Shown here in pieces: positions 3,347-16,915 of a stretch of DNA of 64,000 nt; the first letter of the stretch is position 1, and every line of letters begins with the position of its first letter. The stretch comes from Couchioplanes azureus. GTDB lineage: Bacteria; Actinomycetota; Actinomycetes; Mycobacteriales; Micromonosporaceae. The notes under the pieces were generated by a model that was not told where the DNA came from, ran no database searches, and saw only the letters and a program-made list of their open reading frames with translations. Location: assembly GCF_014648355.1 (NCBI RefSeq), contig NZ_BMQY01000003.1, forward strand, positions 517,916-581,915, given 5' to 3'. The translations under genes and the position numbers were made by a program.

Positions 3347-6300
3347 GTGGTGAACCCACTGTCGCGCGCACGCGCGCTCCTGGTCTCGTTGCTCGCCCTG
3401 CTCCTCGTCGTCTCCGGGCTGCACGCGCCCCCGGCCTCCGCCGCACCCGCCGCCGACGCGCGGCGGCAGCTCGCCAAGTTGCTGGAGGGCGACCAGCCGA
3501 TTCCGGTACCGCCGCTGGTCACCCAGCCCTGGGACGGTACGACCGGCCTGGACGTCACCGCGGAACGGTGGCGCAAGGCCGTCTCCGATGTCGCCCAGCT
3601 GTCGCCCGAGACGGAGGTCCGTCAGGCGGCGCTGGCCGCGCTGGCCACCGGTGACAACCAGAAGATCCAGCAGTTCGCCACGGTCGAGAAGCGCCAGCTC
3701 GAGACGCAGGTCGCCGCCCGCAAGAAGCAGCAGGCCGCGGACAACCTGACGAAGATCAAGGCGATGAAGGGCACCGGCGGTGCCTACTTCAACGCCGAGG
3801 TGGACCGGGTCCTCGCCGGCACCGACAGCGACCGCGAGGCGTTTCTCGCGTACGGCGCCGACATCGTCCGCGCCCGCGACGAGAAGGTCGCCGGCGACGC
3901 ACGGGCGCGGGCCGCGCAGCTCCGGGAGCGGCTCCGGGTCTTCGCCGGTGCCGCGCCCGCGGAGTCGCAGGTGCGGGCCGCCGCCGAGCTCGCGCTGGCC
4001 GGGGACGACGCGGCCGTCGCCGCGTTCTGGGAGACCGGGTACGTCACCGCGGCCAAGGCCGACGCCGCGGCCCGCGAGCAGTACCTGCAGAGCCTGGAGG
4101 CCCGCAACAAGGCGGCCGAGGACCTGTCGGAGCTCGCCCAGCGCGCCAAGCGGGCGTCGCAGGCACGGACGAGGCTGCTCGCCGCCCACGGTGACGCGGT
4201 GCGGGAGCTGCAGCGGGCCGCGAACTCGATGGCCGGCGCCGCGAACGCCGCCCGGAACGCCGAACGCGTCCTGGCCGGTACGGGCACCACGGCCGCCAAG
4301 GCCACCGAGCTGGACGCGGCGAAGGCGCAGACCGCCAACGACGTGCGGGCCGCCCAGCAGGCCGCCGAGCGGGCGGGCGCGGCTGCGGCGATCGCCAACA
4401 CCGCCGCCGACGACCTGATCGAGACCGGGCTGACGTACGGCGCCGAGTGGTCGCTGATCGTCAACGGCATGAGCGCCGCCGTGGTCGCCGCGCACGGCGC
4501 CGCCACGACCGCGGGGCACGCGATCGACGCGACCATCGCCACCAACAACGCGCAGGGTGCCCAGGCCCGGGCCGAGGCGCACGCCCAGCAGGCCGTCAAG
4601 TGGCGCCAGCACGCCGAGGAGCACGCCAAGGCCGCGGCGAGGCTCGCCGACGCCGCCAAGCACCAGGCCGAGGCCGCCAAGACGGCCGCGGCGCGCGCCA
4701 AGAAGGCCCGCGAGCAGGCGCAGGCCGCCGAGGCCGAGGCCTGGGCCGCCGCGGAGCGCACCCGCCAGCAGCGGCAGATCGCCGAGGCGCAGGCCGCGGA
4801 GGCCAAGCGGCAGCGGCAGATCGCCGAGGCCGAGCGCGCCGAGGCCGAGCGGCAGCGCGGCATCGCCGAGCAGCAGGCGGCCGTGGCCAGGTCCCAGCGG
4901 GCGGCGGCGGAGGCCCAGGCGGCCACCGCGCGGGCCGCCCGGCAGCGCGCCGAAGCGGCCGACCAGGCCGCCGGCGCCGCCGCGGGCCGGGCGTGGGAGC
5001 AGGAGGGCCGGGCTCGCGTCGCCCGCGACGAGGCCGTCGCGGCCGAGCGCGCGGAGCAGAGCGCGAAGGCCAGGGCGGCCGCCATGCGCGCGAGCGTGGC
5101 CAGCGCCGGCACCGAGACCGAACGGCAGGAGGCGCAGCGGCAGGCCGATCAGGCCGGCGTCGAGGCCGGCACGGCCGGCACGGCCGCGCGGTCGGCACGG
5201 TCGGCGGCCAACGGTGCGACCAGCGCCGCGGCGAACGCGCGCGCCGCGGCGAACCGGGCCCAGCAGGCCGCCGAGCGGGCCTTCGCGGCCGCGGAGGCCG
5301 CCGAGGCGGCCGCGAAGGCCGCCGACGCCGCGGCGGACAAGGCCGAGGCCGGCGCCCGGCAGACCCACGCCGCACGGCTGCGGGCGGACGCGAAGGCGGC
5401 GGAGGCCACCGCGCAGGAGGTCAAGGCCGCCCGGGCCGCCCAGTCGGCGGTGAGCCTGGCGGAACAGGCCGCGGACGAGTCCGTACGGTCGCTGTGGGCC
5501 GCCAACCGCACCAAGGACGAGGCCGAGGCGGCGACGACCGAGGCGGTCGCCGCGGCGGCACAGGCGGACATCGCGGTGAACGCCGCGGCCGCGGCGCGGC
5601 AGTCGTCGGCGGGCATCGCCGAGCCGGCCAACACGGCCATCGGCATGGTCTCGCCGTTCACCGGAAGCGACATCGACGCCGACTTCGTCAAGCTCGTCGC
5701 CGAGCAGGCCGCGTCCATCGGCCAGGAGCAGGCGGCGGCCGCGGCCCGGCGCGCCACCGAGGCGCTCACCGCGGCGCAGCGCGCGCAGGAGGCGGCGAAC
5801 ACGGCGAACGCACAAGTCAAGCCGGCGTTCAACGCCGCCGCGCAGGCCGCCCGGTCGGCGGCGGACGCGGCCGCGTCCGCCGCCGAGGCCAAGAAGGCGG
5901 CGGCGCAGGCGGCCGCCGACGGGGCAGCCGCCCGTTCCGCCGCGGCCAGCGCGGGCCGGGCGGACGCCCAGGCCCGGGCCGACGCGATCGCGGCCCGCAA
6001 GGCCGCGAACGAGGCGGCCAACGACGCGGCCATCGCCGGGCAGGCCGCCCAGGCGGCGCAGGCCGCGGCCAACGCCGCGGCGTCCGCGGCGACGGCCGCC
6101 GAGAAGGACGCCGCCGCGGCCCAGGGCGCGGCGACCCAGGCGGAGGCCGACGCCGCAGCGGCGGAGCTGGCGGCCTCGAGCGCTCAGGAGTACGCGGACT
6201 CGGCCCAGCTCGCCGCCAACAACGCGGTACAGCTCGCCGCCGAGGCGCAGAAGGCCGCCGAACGCGCCGAGGAGGCGGACCGCAAGCGGGCCGCCGACGC

Positions 6301-7567
6301 CCTCGCCAACGGGGTCGCCGACACCGGCGGCCTGCCGCAGGGCGAGGCCGAGAAGGCTCTGCTCGACTCGCTCACCCCGGAGGAGCGCGCGGAGTACCTC
6401 AAGGCGAAGGAGGAGGCCAGCAAGGGCCTGATCGACTTCCTCAAGGAGAACGCCTGGGAGCTGTTCGAGGAGCTGTCCGGCATCGGTGACATCAAGAAGT
6501 GCGTCTCCGAGGGCAACGTCGAGGCCTGCCTCTGGACGCTCGTCGGGATGCTCCCGGTCGGCAAGATCTTCGGCGCCACGGCCAAGCTGGCCAAGCTCGC
6601 ACCGAAGGTCCTCAGGTTCCTCGACGGCCTCAAGGCCGCCCGCAGGAAGGTCGAGGACTTCATCTCCTCGGTACGGCACCGCAACGGTTGCCCGGTCAAC
6701 CTCGCGCCGAACAGTTTCGTCCCGGGCACGCCCGTCCTGCTGTCCGACGGGTCCCGCAAACCGATCGAGGACGTACGCATCGGGGACATGGTCCTGGCCA
6801 CCGACCCGGTGACCGGGGCGACCGAGCCGGAGCGGGTCGTCGACACCATCACCCGGACCGGCGACAAGGTGCTCGTCGACCTGACCGTGGACACGGACGG
6901 CGCCGCGGGCGACGAGAGCGCGACCATCACCGCCACCGACAACCACCCGTTCTGGGCGCCCAACCTGGCCGAGTGGCTCGACGCGGGCAAGATCATCCCC
7001 GGTGTCCAGCTGCTGACCGCGTCAGGGCAGCGCGTGCGGGTCGAGGCCGTCCGGTCGCGTGAGCAGCGGGCAACGGTGCACAACCTGACGGTCGCCAACC
7101 TGCACACGTACTACGTGGCGGCGGACGACCTGGCGGTCCTGGTGCACAACGTCACCCCGATCCCCTGCGGGACCAGGGCGAACTTCCCCACGGGCGACAC
7201 CATTCCGGTCCGCAAGCCGGCGGGCGTCGGAAACGCCGCGGGCAAGCACAACTACCGGGAGAACTTCTTCTCGCAGAACGCGGAGACCGGTGCACTCCGC
7301 GGCAAGGTGGTGGTGCACCACGCGGTGGAGAAGGACATCGTGAACCGGTACCCGGGTCTGTTCACCGCCGATGAGCTGCACTCCGCGGAGAACCTCCGCG
7401 GCATTCCGAAGGGTGCTATCAACAGCAACATCCATCTGAGTGCCATCCGGCTCTCCTGGAACGCCTTCTACAAGGCGCATCCGAACCCCACCAAGCAGGA
7501 GGTGCTCGACCACGCCACGAAGGTCGACGACCTGCTGGGGCAGTGGTTCGAGCCGAGGATCAGGTGA
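3347..7567 (+). CDS. Secreted polymorphic toxin: alanine-rich coiled-coil stalk, Hint domain, nuclease-like tip
   Basis: 1,406 residues. A Sec signal (hydrophobic LLVSLLALLLVVSG, then an AxA site) is followed by a very long Ala/Glu/Lys/Arg-rich helical stalk to about residue 1050. Residues about 1112-1268 form a pretoxin Hint domain: Cys-Pro-Val near the start, NSFVPGTPVLLSDG, TDNHPFWAP, and a terminal VHN, the usual self-cleavage end. The last 138 residues are the variable toxin: HH at 1324-1325, LHSAENLRGIPKG, then NSNIHLSAIRLSWNAFY with N1361 and H1363. This His/Asn/His layout is that of HNH/AHH-type treble-clef nucleases, so DNA or RNA cleavage is inferred. The start is a GTG pair at 3347/3350. 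An immunity candidate begins 34 bp downstream. Confidence 0.82.
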   Translation: MVNPLSRARALLVSLLALLLVVSGLHAPPASAAPAADARRQLAKLLEGDQPIPVPPLVTQPWDGTTGLDVTAERWRKAVSDVAQLSPETEVRQAALAALATGDNQKIQQFATVEKRQLETQVAARKKQQAADNLTKIKAMKGTGGAYFNAEVDRVLAGTDSDREAFLAYGADIVRARDEKVAGDARARAAQLRERLRVFAGAAPAESQVRAAAELALAGDDAAVAAFWETGYVTAAKADAAAREQYLQSLEARNKAAEDLSELAQRAKRASQARTRLLAAHGDAVRELQRAANSMAGAANAARNAERVLAGTGTTAAKATELDAAKAQTANDVRAAQQAAERAGAAAAIANTAADDLIETGLTYGAEWSLIVNGMSAAVVAAHGAATTAGHAIDATIATNNAQGAQARAEAHAQQAVKWRQHAEEHAKAAARLADAAKHQAEAAKTAAARAKKAREQAQAAEAEAWAAAERTRQQRQIAEAQAAEAKRQRQIAEAERAEAERQRGIAEQQAAVARSQRAAAEAQAATARAARQRAEAADQAAGAAAGRAWEQEGRARVARDEAVAAERAEQSAKARAAAMRASVASAGTETERQEAQRQADQAGVEAGTAGTAARSARSAANGATSAAANARAAANRAQQAAERAFAAAEAAEAAAKAADAAADKAEAGARQTHAARLRADAKAAEATAQEVKAARAAQSAVSLAEQAADESVRSLWAANRTKDEAEAATTEAVAAAAQADIAVNAAAAARQSSAGIAEPANTAIGMVSPFTGSDIDADFVKLVAEQAASIGQEQAAAAARRATEALTAAQRAQEAANTANAQVKPAFNAAAQAARSAADAAASAAEAKKAAAQAAADGAAARSAAASAGRADAQARADAIAARKAANEAANDAAIAGQAAQAAQAAANAAASAATAAEKDAAAAQGAATQAEADAAAAELAASSAQEYADSAQLAANNAVQLAAEAQKAAERAEEADRKRAADALANGVADTGGLPQGEAEKALLDSLTPEERAEYLKAKEEASKGLIDFLKENAWELFEELSGIGDIKKCVSEGNVEACLWTLVGMLPVGKIFGATAKLAKLAPKVLRFLDGLKAARRKVEDFISSVRHRNGCPVNLAPNSFVPGTPVLLSDGSRKPIEDVRIGDMVLATDPVTGATEPERVVDTITRTGDKVLVDLTVDTDGAAGDESATITATDNHPFWAPNLAEWLDAGKIIPGVQLLTASGQRVRVEAVRSREQRATVHNLTVANLHTYYVAADDLAVLVHNVTPIPCGTRANFPTGDTIPVRKPAGVGNAAGKHNYRENFFSQNAETGALRGKVVVHHAVEKDIVNRYPGLFTADELHSAENLRGIPKGAINSNIHLSAIRLSWNAFYKAHPNPTKQEVLDHATKVDDLLGQWFEPRIR

Positions 7568-11133: not shown

Positions 11134-11874
11134 ATGCGTCACTACTCGGTCGAGCTGGCGCCGCCGGGCGGAGGACGCTCCGGCACCGTCGCCGTCTACG
11201 GGCACTGGGGCAGGCCCGTCCTCGTCTTCCCCACCGAGAACGGCGATGCGTGGGAGTTCGCCCGCACCGGCACGGTCGGCGCCGTCGCGCACCTGATCGA
11301 TGCCGGCCGGGTCAAGCTGTACTGCGTCGACTCGTTCGACGCCGAGACGTGGTCGGCGCACCACCTGCCGCTCGAGGAGCGGGCCTGGCGGCACGCCGCC
11401 TACGAGGAGTGGGTGCTCGAGGCGGTCGTGCCGCACATCCGGGCCGACACCGGGCCGGCCGACATCGTCACGGCCGGGTGCTCGCTGGGCGCCTTCCACG
11501 CCCTGAACTTCGCCTTCAAGCGGGCCGACCTGTTTCCGCTGGCCCTGTGCCTCTCCGGAAACTACGACCCGGGCTCGTGGCACGGCTGGGGCGAGCGGGG
11601 GGACGCGGTCTACTTCAACAGCCCGGTGGACTACGTCGCCCGCCTGCACGGAGACCACCTGGACTGGCTGCGGGAACGGCTGTCGCTGGTGCTGGTGTGC
11701 GGACAGGGCCAGTGGGAGGACACCACCGGCGCGCTGGAGTCGACGCGGCGGATGGGCGCGCTGCTCACCGGCAAGGGCATCCGGCACGAACTGGACCTCT
11801 GGGGCCCGGACGTGCCGCACGACTGGCCGTCATGGCGTGAGCAGCTGGCCCATCACCTGCCCACGCTCAGCTGA
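11134..11874 (+). CDS. Alpha/beta-hydrolase esterase (esterase D/antigen-85-like fold)
   Basis: 246 residues with the nucleophile elbow GCSLGA inside TAGCSLGAFHALNFAFK, the usual pattern of the putative-esterase family related to S-formylglutathione hydrolase. The catalytic acid is likely in the DTTGALESTRR region and the histidine in VPHDWPSW. There is no signal peptide, so it acts in the cytoplasm; the ester substrate is unknown. Its 3' end overlaps the convergent protease gene by 22 bases. Confidence 0.8.
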   Translation: MRHYSVELAPPGGGRSGTVAVYGHWGRPVLVFPTENGDAWEFARTGTVGAVAHLIDAGRVKLYCVDSFDAETWSAHHLPLEERAWRHAAYEEWVLEAVVPHIRADTGPADIVTAGCSLGAFHALNFAFKRADLFPLALCLSGNYDPGSWHGWGERGDAVYFNSPVDYVARLHGDHLDWLRERLSLVLVCGQGQWEDTTGALESTRRMGALLTGKGIRHELDLWGPDVPHDWPSWREQLAHHLPTLS

Positions 11875-13790
11875 GCGACGGCGGCGAAGGAGATCGAGGC
11901 GCTGTCGGTGCCGCCCGGCGTGGTGAGCCTGAGGGTGGCCGCACCCGCGGGCCGGGCCGGGACGGTCACCCGCACCTGCGAGTCCGACACCCGGGTGAAC
12001 CGGAGGCTGGTGGTGCCCAGCAGCACGCTCGTCGCGTCGGTCAGTCCGGTGCCGGTGATCGTCACCGCCGTCGGCCTGGCCGTCGACGCATTGATCACGC
12101 TCAGAGACGTGATCACCGGCGGCGGCGGGGCGACGTACCGGAAGGTGCCGCCACCCTCGGAGGTGCCGCCCGGGGTGGTGACCCGGACCGTCACCGTGCC
12201 GGCCGCGTGCGCGGGGATGGAGACCTTGAGCTGGGTCGCCGACACCCGCGTGAACCGGGCCGGAACGCCGTCGACGGTGACCCCGGTGGCCCCGGTGAAG
12301 TCGGTGCCGGTCAGCACGACCGGGGTGGTCTTGTACGTCAACCCGCTGGCCGGCGCCACCGCGCTGACGGTGGGCGGCGGCGGGTTCTGGTAGGTGAGCT
12401 GGCCGGTGACGCTGCTGGTGCTGCCGAAGGTGTTGGTGACCGCGACCGGGTAGGTGCCGGCGGACTTGGCCGGCGCGGCGAAGGTGAGCGACGTCGGGGT
12501 CACCGACTTGGCGGCGACCTTCGTCGTGCCGACCATGACGCTGGTAGCGCCGGTGAGGTCGGTGCCGGTGAGCGTGATCGTCGCGCCGCCGAAGACGAGC
12601 AGGCTGGCGGGGTTGAGCGAGGTGACCGCCGGGGGCGGGGGAACGAAGGTGAACTTGCTGACCTTGCTCACGGCGCTGGTGCCCGCCGCGCTGGTGACCC
12701 GTACGTCGACGAGGCCGCCCGCGGCCAGGGCCGGGGTGACCGCGACCAGCGTGGTGACACCCAGAGTGGTCCGCTCCTCGAAGGTGGCGGTGCGGTCGCC
12801 GAAGCGGACCGAGGTCGCGCCGCTGAGACCGGTGCCGCGGATGGTGACCGAGGTGCCCGCCGGACCCCTGGCCACGGACAGCGCGGTCACGGTCGGCGCC
12901 GCCGCGACCGGCGGACCGGCCGGGGTGGCGATGCCGTCGACGCTGAACCCGGTCATCGCCTGCCGGGTGATGAACGCCCAGGACAGCTTGGCGTCACCGC
13001 CGTTGCCCCAGCTCTGCCCCCACGAGTTGCGGATAAGCACGCCCTGGGAGTCGTAGCCGTACGCCGCGATCATGTGGTTGCCCAGGTTGGTGCCGGAGGT
13101 CGTGCTGTATACGGAGTGGCTGCGCAGGTTCATGAAGTCCTGGTAGACCGGGATGCCGAGGGCGACGGGCGAGCCGGTGGCGAGCGCCTGCTTGATCGAC
13201 TCCTGGGCGGCGGCACCCTGGTTGGCGCCGTTGAAGAGCAGCCGGTAGCCGCTGACCCGGTAGTTCTTGGCGTTCTCGATCTGCGTCGTGGTCGGGGCGA
13301 TCCTCCAGTCGGTGGTGCCCTGCCAGTAGTCCGCCTGGGTGTCGATGCCGGCGGACTTGACGTTGGCCAGCACGGAGTCCGGGTACAGCCCGGCGCTGGG
13401 AGCGCCGCCCCGGACGACGTTGCGCAGGTAGAGGAACAGCGGGGCGTACGGTGCGCCGCTGCCGCCCGTACGGTTCGCGTAGTAACCCATGATGCTGTAG
13501 CCGATGGTCCAGGCGACGCACGCGCCCACCTGGCCCTGGTCGCCGGGCGGCGGCGCATACCGCCGCAGGTCGACGCTGGCGGGCAGCACGTCGAGGGCGT
13601 GTGCTCCGTCGCGGACCCGGGCCGGGGTCCGGGTGGGGCTGGTCACGAGCCCGCCGACGGCGTGCGGGAGCTTGCCGCCGCGCGGGGCGGCCGAGGCGGG
13701 AGCGGGGGCGATCGTGGCCGGGGCGGCAGCCAGTACGGCCGCGGCCACCATGAGCCACCCGCGGTGCAGCGCACGCGTCGTCAAGCGCAT
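11853..13790 (-). CDS. Secreted C1-type cysteine peptidase with four IPT/TIG domains
   Basis: 645 residues with a Sec signal peptide ending near residue 36. The papain-like catalytic set is complete: oxyanion glutamine in GDQGQVGACVAW with nucleophile Cys91, His239 in LGNHMIAAYGY and Asn255 in IRNSWGQSWGNGG. From about residue 300, four Ig-like IPT/TIG repeats follow (for example TALSVARGPAGTSVTIRGTG), probably binding a cell-surface or polymer ligand. Bacterial C1 proteases with such tails are uncommon compared with the plain catalytic form. It is well separated from the divergent cbiZ gene by 97 bases. Confidence 0.85.
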   Translation of the reverse strand: MRLTTRALHRGWLMVAAAVLAAAPATIAPAPASAAPRGGKLPHAVGGLVTSPTRTPARVRDGAHALDVLPASVDLRRYAPPPGDQGQVGACVAWTIGYSIMGYYANRTGGSGAPYAPLFLYLRNVVRGGAPSAGLYPDSVLANVKSAGIDTQADYWQGTTDWRIAPTTTQIENAKNYRVSGYRLLFNGANQGAAAQESIKQALATGSPVALGIPVYQDFMNLRSHSVYSTTSGTNLGNHMIAAYGYDSQGVLIRNSWGQSWGNGGDAKLSWAFITRQAMTGFSVDGIATPAGPPVAAAPTVTALSVARGPAGTSVTIRGTGLSGATSVRFGDRTATFEERTTLGVTTLVAVTPALAAGGLVDVRVTSAAGTSAVSKVSKFTFVPPPPAVTSLNPASLLVFGGATITLTGTDLTGATSVMVGTTKVAAKSVTPTSLTFAAPAKSAGTYPVAVTNTFGSTSSVTGQLTYQNPPPPTVSAVAPASGLTYKTTPVVLTGTDFTGATGVTVDGVPARFTRVSATQLKVSIPAHAAGTVTVRVTTPGGTSEGGGTFRYVAPPPPVITSLSVINASTARPTAVTITGTGLTDATSVLLGTTSLRFTRVSDSQVRVTVPARPAGAATLRLTTPGGTDSASISFAAVAQLSVGR

Positions 13791-13875: not shown

Positions 13876-13881
13876 TAGGGT
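13876..13881 (+). promoter_or_regulatory. -10 box (TAGGGT) for leaderless cbiZ transcript
   Basis: TAGGGT sits six bases before the ATG of cbiZ, which argues that the mRNA starts at the start codon. This also leaves no room for a 5' cobalamin riboswitch. Confidence 0.5.
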
Positions 13882-13887
13882 CGGGCC

Positions 13888-14571
13888 ATGATCGGCGAAC
13901 CGCTTCTGACCCACCGGGACGAGGGCGGCTGCGACGTTCCGCTGCTGGTCTGGCGCCTGAGCGAGCCCGCACTCGCGATCTCGTCGGCGGTGCTGGGCGG
14001 CGGGATCGGGCCCTGCCGGTGGCTGGTCAACGCGACCGTGCCGATGTCGTACGACCGCGACGACCCGGCCGTCCACCTGGCCGGGATCGCCGCCGGCCTG
14101 GGACTGGCCGGTCCCGGCGTCGGCCTGCTCACCGGCGTCGACGTCGCCGACGTGGTCACCGCGGACGAGGAAGGGGTCCGGCTCTGGGCCACGGTCGGCC
14201 TCGGCGCCCCCGTCCAGGCCGCCGCACCGGCCGCCGAGGCGGCACCGCACGCCGGGACGGTCAACATCGTGGCCTGGGTGCCGCGGCGGCTGAGCGACGG
14301 CGCCCTGGTGAACGCGGTCGCCACCCTGACCGAGGCCAAGACGCAGGCGATCCGCGAGCTGGGCCTGGCCGCCACCGGCACGGCCACCGACGCCGTCGCC
14401 GTGCTCTGCCCGCCGGCGGGCCCCGAGGCCGAGTACGCCGGGCCGCGGTCGCAGTGGGGCCGGCGACTGGCCCGCGCCGGCCACCGCGCCGTCCTCTCCG
14501 GCGGCGCCGTCAACCTGGCCGGGACGGCGTCGTGGTCCGAGCGCCGGGCGGGTACGCACACCGACCCGTAG
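13888..14571 (+). CDS. cbiZ: Adenosylcobinamide amidohydrolase
   Basis: 227 residues matching the CbiZ family: LAISSAVLGGGIG near the N-terminus, NATVPMSYDRDDP, GLLTGVDVADVV in the middle and the signature ATGTATDAVAVLCP near residue 170. CbiZ cleaves the amide linking the aminopropanol arm of adenosylcobinamide, giving adenosylcobyric acid for cobamide salvage or remodelling. It is 45 bases from, and on the same strand as, a B12-binding photoreceptor-like gene, suggesting it helps supply that protein's cofactor. No other corrinoid gene is nearby. Confidence 0.9.
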   Translation: MIGEPLLTHRDEGGCDVPLLVWRLSEPALAISSAVLGGGIGPCRWLVNATVPMSYDRDDPAVHLAGIAAGLGLAGPGVGLLTGVDVADVVTADEEGVRLWATVGLGAPVQAAAPAAEAAPHAGTVNIVAWVPRRLSDGALVNAVATLTEAKTQAIRELGLAATGTATDAVAVLCPPAGPEAEYAGPRSQWGRRLARAGHRAVLSGGAVNLAGTASWSERRAGTHTDP

Positions 14572-14616
14572 CGAGCTCTTGCCCTCCCCGGCGCCCCGGT
14601 ACGAGGATGGTCGTCG

Positions 14617-15693
14617 ATGTCCGCAAGTCCGTGCGGGAGCATCATGACCCCGATGATCAAGAAAGCCCGGCCCGCCCTGCTGCGGCTCCTGCTGGCCGCC
14701 GACGAGCCGGGCGCCGTACGCCTGGTCCGCCGATTGCTGGACTCCGGCGTCGACCACGAACGGGTGCTGCTCGGCCTCGTCGCGCCGGTGATGGCGTACG
14801 TCGGGCACCTCTGGCAGCACAACCGGCTGTCCGTCGCCCACGAACACGCGGCGAGCTCCGTGGCCGAGCGCGTGGTCGCCGCCGTGCGCGTGCACGCCGG
14901 CGCCCGGCCGCACCGCCGGGACAGGCTGGTGATCGCCTGCCCCGAGGGCGAATGGCACACGCTGCCCCCGCGGCTGCTCGCCGAGACGCTGCGGTTGCAG
15001 GGCTGGCCGGTCACCTTCCTCGGCGCGGGACTGCCCGCCGCGCACCTGACCGTCTACCTCCAGCAGTACCACCCCGTCGCGGTCCTGCTCAGCGCCTCGC
15101 TCACGGTCCGGCTGCCGCAGGCCCGTCGCTCCGTACTGGCGGCGCGGCGGGCCGGCGTCCCCGTGCTCGCCGGCGGCGCGGGATTCGGCCACGACGCGCG
15201 CCTGGCCCTGCGGCTGGGCGCCCACGCCTGGGCGTCCGGTCCCTCCGACGCGGCCGCGCTCCTGCACGACTGGCCGCCCAAGGAGCCGGCCCACGCCACG
15301 CTGGAACACCTGGCCGACGAGGAACACGCCCGCCTCTGCCGGGCGATCCCCGGCCTGACCGACAGCGCGATGCAGATCCTGCGGGAGGAGTTCCCGCCGC
15401 TGCACGACTACGACCGCCGTCAGCTCGAGGCCACCAGGGACGACCTGCAGCACATCCTGAACTTCCTGGCCGCCGCGGTCTACCTCGACGAGTGCACGGT
15501 GTTCACCGAGTTCATCGGGTGGCTCGCCAGCGTCCTCGCCGCGCGGGACGTGCCGCCGGGCAGCGTGCAGCCCGTGCTGGCCCATTTCCAGAACACCCTC
15601 GACGGCCGCCCCCGCACGCAGCGCATCCTCGCCGCGGGACAGCACGCGCTCGGCATCGCGCTGCAAGGCTCGCCGGCACCGCCGCTCCTGTGA
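14617..15693 (+). CDS. B12-binding photoreceptor-like protein lacking a DNA-binding domain
   Basis: 358 residues (349 if the ATG at 14644, preceded by GGGAG, is used). An N-terminal four-helix bundle contains W66 and E76-H77, exactly the Wx9EH motif of CarH/LitR-type adenosylcobalamin light sensors. A Rossmann-like B12-binding domain follows, with EGEWH (H114, candidate lower cobalt ligand), then FLGAGLP and ASLTVRLP strands. Instead of the MerR DNA-binding domain found at the N-terminus of CarH, there is a C-terminal helical domain of ~130 residues that I do not recognise. It may signal by protein-protein contact. The gene lies directly downstream of cbiZ. Confidence 0.8.
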   Translation: MSASPCGSIMTPMIKKARPALLRLLLAADEPGAVRLVRRLLDSGVDHERVLLGLVAPVMAYVGHLWQHNRLSVAHEHAASSVAERVVAAVRVHAGARPHRRDRLVIACPEGEWHTLPPRLLAETLRLQGWPVTFLGAGLPAAHLTVYLQQYHPVAVLLSASLTVRLPQARRSVLAARRAGVPVLAGGAGFGHDARLALRLGAHAWASGPSDAAALLHDWPPKEPAHATLEHLADEEHARLCRAIPGLTDSAMQILREEFPPLHDYDRRQLEATRDDLQHILNFLAAAVYLDECTVFTEFIGWLASVLAARDVPPGSVQPVLAHFQNTLDGRPRTQRILAAGQHALGIALQGSPAPPLL

Positions 15694-15786: not shown

Positions 15787-16392
15787 ATGGAGACACCGTT
15801 GGCCAACCGGCTGCTGTACCTGGCTCGGCACGGCGAAGCCGTCGACGACGGTAACCTCACTGCCCGCGGCCGACAGCAGGCCGACCTGCTCGGCGAACGT
15901 CTGGCCACCGTGCCCCTGACGGCCATCCACCACGGCCCGCTGCCACGCGCCGCCCAGACCGCCGACCTGATCAGCCGGCACCTTCCGGGCGTACCGATGC
16001 ACTGCTCGGACGTCGTCGGCGACTACGTCCCGCCCGTGCCGGACCTCCAGGCCCTGCGCGAGGTCTACGCCCGTTTCCTCGACGGCGTCACCGCCGAGGA
16101 GTACGCCACCGGAGCGACTCTGGCCGCCGCGGCCCTCCAGCAGCACGCGGTGCCCACCACAACGGACAGCCACGAACTGGTCATCACGCACAGCTTCTTG
16201 ATCGCCTGGTTCGTTCGCCATGCTCTCGACGCCCCGGACGCCCGCTGGCTCGGCCTCAACGCCGCCAACTGTGCCCTGACCGTGCTCCTCTACCGCCCCC
16301 ACCGCCCACCGACGCTGGTCAGCTTCAACGACACCAGCCACCTACCACCGGAACTACGCTGGACGGGCTTCCCGCCTGAGCTTCACGTCTGA
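15787..16392 (+). CDS. Histidine phosphatase family protein
   Basis: 201 residues with the RHGEA phosphohistidine motif near the N-terminus, LTARGRQQADLLGERL, an arginine in GPLPRAAQTADLI and the second histidine in VITHSFLIAWFV. These define the phosphoglycerate-mutase-like phosphatase superfamily. Alpha-ribazole phosphatase (CobC) belongs here, and cbiZ is close, but no CobC-specific feature is visible, so the substrate is left open. The gene lies 93 bases after the B12-binding gene. A TTG 15 bases into the frame is a possible alternative start. Confidence 0.8.
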   Translation: METPLANRLLYLARHGEAVDDGNLTARGRQQADLLGERLATVPLTAIHHGPLPRAAQTADLISRHLPGVPMHCSDVVGDYVPPVPDLQALREVYARFLDGVTAEEYATGATLAAAALQQHAVPTTTDSHELVITHSFLIAWFVRHALDAPDARWLGLNAANCALTVLLYRPHRPPTLVSFNDTSHLPPELRWTGFPPELHV

Positions 16393-16459: not shown

Positions 16460-16915
16460 ATGACGATCAAGGAGTACCCCCAGGACCAGCTTGCCGCCCA
16501 GCCCATCGGCTACTGGACCGGCGCCGCCAACGAGATCATCATCGGCACCATCCGCGCCGCGCTCGGCGAGGAAGACCTCACCCAACCGCACTGGTGGATC
16601 CTCAACCACATCGCCGGCGCCCCCGGCACGTGGACCCGCGAGGCCCTCACCGCCAAGCTCTCTCCGTTCGACACCCAACGCCTCGACTTCGAGGCCATCT
16701 ACGGCGACCTCACCGCTCGCGGCTGGATCACGGAGACCGACGGCCGGCTCAGCCTCACCGAGGTCGGAGAGGCGGGCCGCCAACGGGCAGCGGCCCGCAT
16801 GCACACCGTGCACCAGCAGACCCACGAAGGCATCGAGACCGAGGAGTACATCGCCGCCCTCGACGTCCTTCGCAGGATGATCGGCAACCTCGGCGGCAAC
16901 AGCGACCTCCCCTAG
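16460..16915 (+). CDS. MarR-like winged-helix regulator
   Basis: 151 residues from ATG 16460 (TACGGT-N6-ATG supports this over an upstream TTG at 16439). The segment HWWILNHIAGAPGTWTREAL is followed by FEAIYGDLTARGWITETDGRLSLTEVGEAG, the recognition-helix and wing arrangement of MarR-family dimers, with helical dimerisation arms at both ends. Ligand and targets are unknown. An inverted repeat overlapping its own promoter suggests autoregulation. No obvious resistance or catabolic gene is divergent from it; the neighbour on the other side is a convergent peptidase. Confidence 0.7.
   Translation: MTIKEYPQDQLAAQPIGYWTGAANEIIIGTIRAALGEEDLTQPHWWILNHIAGAPGTWTREALTAKLSPFDTQRLDFEAIYGDLTARGWITETDGRLSLTEVGEAGRQRAAARMHTVHQQTHEGIETEEYIAALDVLRRMIGNLGGNSDLP

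Follow-up and report, generated by a model that had tools for sequence, protein, structure and literature searches.

What kind of sensor is encoded directly behind cbiZ in Couchioplanes azureus, and does this neighbour provide its cofactor? The two genes lie on the forward strand of a 64,000-nucleotide stretch of contig NZ_BMQY01000003.1, here called the window. The sensor gene (positions 14617–15693) encodes 358 amino acids, has a GC3 of 0.94, and is separated by 45 bp from cbiZ (13888–14571), which encodes an adenosylcobinamide amidohydrolase of 227 residues (Pfam CbiZ, E 7e-53). A preliminary description had recognized in the protein the Wx9EH motif of the CarH/LitR photoreceptors and a B12-binding domain with the sequence EGEWH, had noticed the absence of a MerR domain and the position directly after cbiZ, and had proposed a light or cobalamin sensor acting through protein contacts, with its own cofactor supply. 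All four observations proved accurate. The protein is a standalone photocobilin over its full length, so the B12 sensor is of an already known type. Photocobilins have already been published as a family of B12 light sensors devoid of DNA-binding domains (PMC10979010), and the window protein is a further member; a B12-based light sensor that works through protein contacts and has no DNA-binding domain is well supported.

Both B12 domains score above the Pfam cut-offs. The four-helix bundle (residues 20–90, positions 14674–14886, forward strand; B12-binding_2, E 2.6e-14) carries W66, E76 and H77, which reproduce the Wx9EH motif exactly in the alignment. The Rossmann domain (residues 103–204, positions 14923–15228, forward strand; B12-binding, E 7e-13) carries the lower-ligand His114 and the dimer-contact His143, aligned to H108 and H137 of SasPcob, the photocobilin of Saccharothrix syringae; within EGEWH, the residues E112-W113-H114 are exact. 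No MerR or other DNA-binding domain was found by Pfam in the protein. The C-terminal domain had been described as helical and about 130 residues long. The helices are present in the model, but the domain spans about residues 235–350 (positions 15319–15666, forward strand), and its identity had been missed: it is a bilin-binding globin, since both the model and the C-terminal part searched alone (E 1.3e-24 with 8J2W) match the SasPcob structures. Translation probably starts at Met13 (position 14653), because homology to SasPcob begins there and residues 1–7 of the model have a pLDDT below 50.

The assignment involves the whole chain. Residues 16–349 match the SasPcob structures 8J2W and 8J2X (phmmer, E 1e-79), with 49% identity (163/331 aligned residues), and the protein matches AbPcob (8J2Y) at E 1.5e-45. 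The AlphaFold2 model, for which 34 window and locus sequences were used, reaches a mean pLDDT of 92.7. Its best Foldseek match is 8J2W_A (E 1e-25; TM 0.86 by query, 0.93 by target); matches 1 to 5 are all photocobilin chains, and CarH-type B12 domains rank behind them. The residues reported to hold the chromophores in SasPcob are W61, E71, H72, H108, H137, D270 and W296 (PMC10979010). All seven are retained, as W66, E76, H77, H114, H143, D276 and W302, the biliverdin contacts D270, W296 and H137 corresponding to D276, W302 and H143. SasPcob is described as lacking the cysteine which attaches biliverdin covalently in other photoreceptors (PMC10979010). A cysteine is absent also from the aligned stretch T273-R274-D275-D276 of the window protein, and non-covalent binding of biliverdin is therefore expected. 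Heme oxygenase, cobalamin adenosyltransferase and CobS are encoded in the genome, which makes it plausible that both biliverdin and adenosylcobalamin are available as chromophores in the host.

Homologues are widespread in the family, where 191 of 301 genomes carry one at E 1e-20 or better. Phylum-wide, homologues at E 1e-15 were found in 48 of 397 genomes, the weaker ones matching the B12 domains only. A scan of genome contigs with the window protein as single query retrieved only distant B12 proteins of Nitrospira. Each of the 58 extracted homologues carries W66, E76, H77 and H114 unchanged. This, together with the full-chain photocobilin match, argues that the motif is not due to chance. 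In the globin, D276 is kept in 51 and W302 in 54 of 55 homologues.

The other photocobilins examined in the class reside in a different setting. In all 40 class-level loci examined other than the window (L002, L011–L039, L071–L078, L085 and L088, mostly the best-scoring ones and not a random draw) the photocobilin gene is directly preceded, in the same orientation, by a gene for a SpoIIE/PP2C phosphatase, and the junction is mostly a 4-bp overlap of stop and start codons. No SpoIIE gene was found within about 1.5 kb of the more distant photocobilin relatives of the phylum. In L011–L014, which host the closest orthologues of the window copy, STAS-HATPase, SpoIIE and photocobilin genes follow in a row; in L014/L103 the first two read as one frame, in which only STAS and SpoIIE score above threshold. 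The orthologous photocobilin of genome G227 (L014:1385–2391) features a frame change near the C-terminus, which may be an assembly error or mark a pseudogene. STAS, SpoIIE and PP2C-like proteins are listed among potential photocobilin partners by a network analysis (PMC10979010). Among the papers searched, no other one names photocobilins and SpoIIE together. Gene order makes SpoIIE the most likely native target of the standalone photocobilin in the relatives.

The window genome hosts one photocobilin with such a neighbour and one without. A second photocobilin, Pcob1 (L009:9380–10423), sits directly behind a SpoIIE phosphatase gene with weak, below-cut-off PAS and GAF matches. Upstream of the window photocobilin the SpoIIE/PP2C gene is absent, and cbiZ is found in its place; no SpoIIE remnant was recognized by eye in the gap between the two genes. 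In the tree, the window protein groups with the proteins of L011–L014 (support 100/99), away from its own-genome paralogue. Close relatives of the STAS-HATPase and SpoIIE genes were not found in the window genome, the best matches being 39% identical over a part and 36% identical; between two operon-bearing genomes the same proteins are 68% and 72% identical. The window copy thus appears to be an orphan: a standalone photocobilin separated from its operon, probably still photoactive, and acting in trans or being lost. As a whole, this account is judged probable.

The surroundings of cbiZ were compared with those in a sister genome, G177. The G177 locus is syntenic with the window, with flanks 83–92% identical at the DNA level. 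The region behind cbiZ is variable, because two downstream genes of the window are missing from the syntenic stretch. One, 93 bp downstream of the photocobilin (15787–16392, forward strand), encodes a histidine-phosphatase-superfamily protein (Pfam His_Phos_1, E 6e-20); the other (16460–16915) is small and has a weak winged-helix-like match only. A CobC role of the histidine phosphatase was rejected, as the protein scores 31.8 bits with the alpha-ribazole phosphatase model vs a cut-off of 162.9, and the gene is absent from the other loci examined; a corrinoid-salvage operon made by cbiZ and a CobC-like gene fell with it. On the other side, a papain-family peptidase with several TIG domains (11853–13790) is about 67% identical in G177 at the protein level, and an adjacent esterase gene about 93%. 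Farther away in the window, the C-terminal part of a 1406-residue protein (3347–7567) contains a Pretoxin-HINT domain.

The cofactor supply suggested by the preliminary description would make cbiZ and the sensor one functional unit: by salvaging cobinamide, CbiZ would provide the photoreceptor with adenosylcobalamin. The shared strand and the short gap speak for it, as does the recurrence of the junction in G177. Yet in a survey of 30 cbiZ loci of the genus, a photocobilin sequence within 1.5 kb was found in two only, the window and G177, and no other photocobilin locus examined carries cbiZ. In G177, moreover, cbiZ is intact and 93% identical to that of the window, while a deletion of about 880 bp, equivalent to window positions 14611–15492, has removed codons 1–292 of the photocobilin; the remaining stump (L104:5070–5312) measures 65 codons and is 78% identical. 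A junction confined to two genomes, with the sensor lost in one, argues against a dedicated cofactor supply. Adenosyltransferase and CobS genes are located elsewhere, and Rfam detected no riboswitch of any kind in the window, the five cobalamin riboswitches of the genome all lying outside it. The functional unit is improbable. The cbiZ-photocobilin junction is most simply taken as older than the split of the two genomes, and seems to reflect a rearrangement of local extent, not an inherent supply. A second photocobilin of G177 (L118:4223–5262) lies at the SpoIIE gene there and shares about 90% identity with the paralogue of the window genome; its reading frame is apparently broken by one base near residues 200–209, which may be a sequencing error.

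The same deletion, and the lower identity of the stump relative to cbiZ, could denote that the window gene is decaying and has no function left. The ancestral partner genes are gone, the paralogue persists with its SpoIIE, and the window protein has a long branch (0.63) and deviates at 7 of 93 near-invariant positions. Against this, the 358-codon frame is intact and of coding-type composition, all chromophore residues are kept in a confidently predicted fold, and intact-looking relatives deviate to a similar extent (8 positions in L074, 7 in L077). Full decay is doubtful, though the departures, the branch length and the loss of most of the gene in G177 indicate that the copy may be under weak selection. 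Much less credit is due to the idea of a cobalamin-level sensor, the other half of the initial proposal, or of a methyltransferase corrinoid protein. B12-binding folds are shared with MtaC/MtgC-like corrinoid proteins and methionine synthase, but the curated models of the MtaC/MtbC type reach 16–22 bits vs cut-offs of 215–450, no methyltransferase occurs among the examined neighbouring genes, and both the globin and the triad of the adenosyl pocket are of the photoreceptor type; this identity is very improbable. CarH was discarded as well (54 bits with the NCBIfam CarH model vs a cut-off of 400; no MerR domain). The orphaned photocobilin is the preferred reading, and that the copy retains photochemistry and acts in trans is rather likely.

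SasPcob holds adenosylcobalamin and biliverdin side by side, and green or red light breaks its Co-C bond; the dimer dissociates in light, and SasPcob is able to act in trans on a diguanylate cyclase domain and alter it (PMC10979010). By homology, the dark state of the window protein would be a head-to-tail dimer bound to adenosylcobalamin, with His114 as the lower ligand, the adenosyl group held by W66, E76 and H77, and biliverdin lodged non-covalently in the globin, beside the corrin ring. Absorption of green light by B12, or of red light by biliverdin, would break the Co-C bond and free adenosine, and the ensuing dissociation of the dimer would change the contacts of the photocobilin with other proteins. 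In the relatives the contact would most likely be the phosphatase encoded upstream, through which light would control phosphorylation of a STAS anti-anti-sigma protein, and hence sigma-factor activity. The window copy would derive from such a STAS-HATPase/SpoIIE/photocobilin operon, have lost its partner genes and now reside behind cbiZ. It probably keeps its photoactivity and works in trans, with the paralogue's SpoIIE as a possible target, or else it is being lost. For the broader proposal, that standalone actinobacterial photocobilins are light-sensing subunits of this three-gene module and the window copy an orphan acting in trans, the chances appear even.

The description of photocobilins dates from 2024 and did not settle what the standalone type natively acts on. 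Conserved gene order points to a specific partner, a SpoIIE/PP2C phosphatase whose activity can be measured in light and dark. The published partners come from association networks, and the near-universal gene pair would make the SpoIIE link directly testable. What the survey contributes is a clear statement that SpoIIE and photocobilin genes pair, along with one example from nature in which the pair has come apart. If the link is true, PP2C phosphatase activity and sigma-factor release would be under the direct control of green and red light. As a sensor with lost partners, the copy in the window is of modest interest; the dedicated pairing is the more interesting lead.

Among known systems, SasPcob (PDB 8J2W, 8J2X; PMC10979010) has the same length and domain order as the window protein, as well as the residues in contact with adenosylcobalamin and biliverdin, and both lack an output domain. 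The window copy differs in that the D of the DGEWH motif is replaced by E, in following cbiZ, and in having no SpoIIE neighbour. Pcob1 is also a photocobilin, 46% identical to the window copy, but belongs to another clade. The photocobilin-diguanylate cyclase AbDPcob (PDB 8J2Y) features the same B12 and globin core and a GGDEF domain not found in the window protein; the key Asp, kept in the latter, is His in AbPcob. CarH/LitR proteins share with the window protein the B12-binding domains, Wx9EH and the lower-ligand His; in contrast, they carry a MerR domain, and the globin is found in the window protein only.
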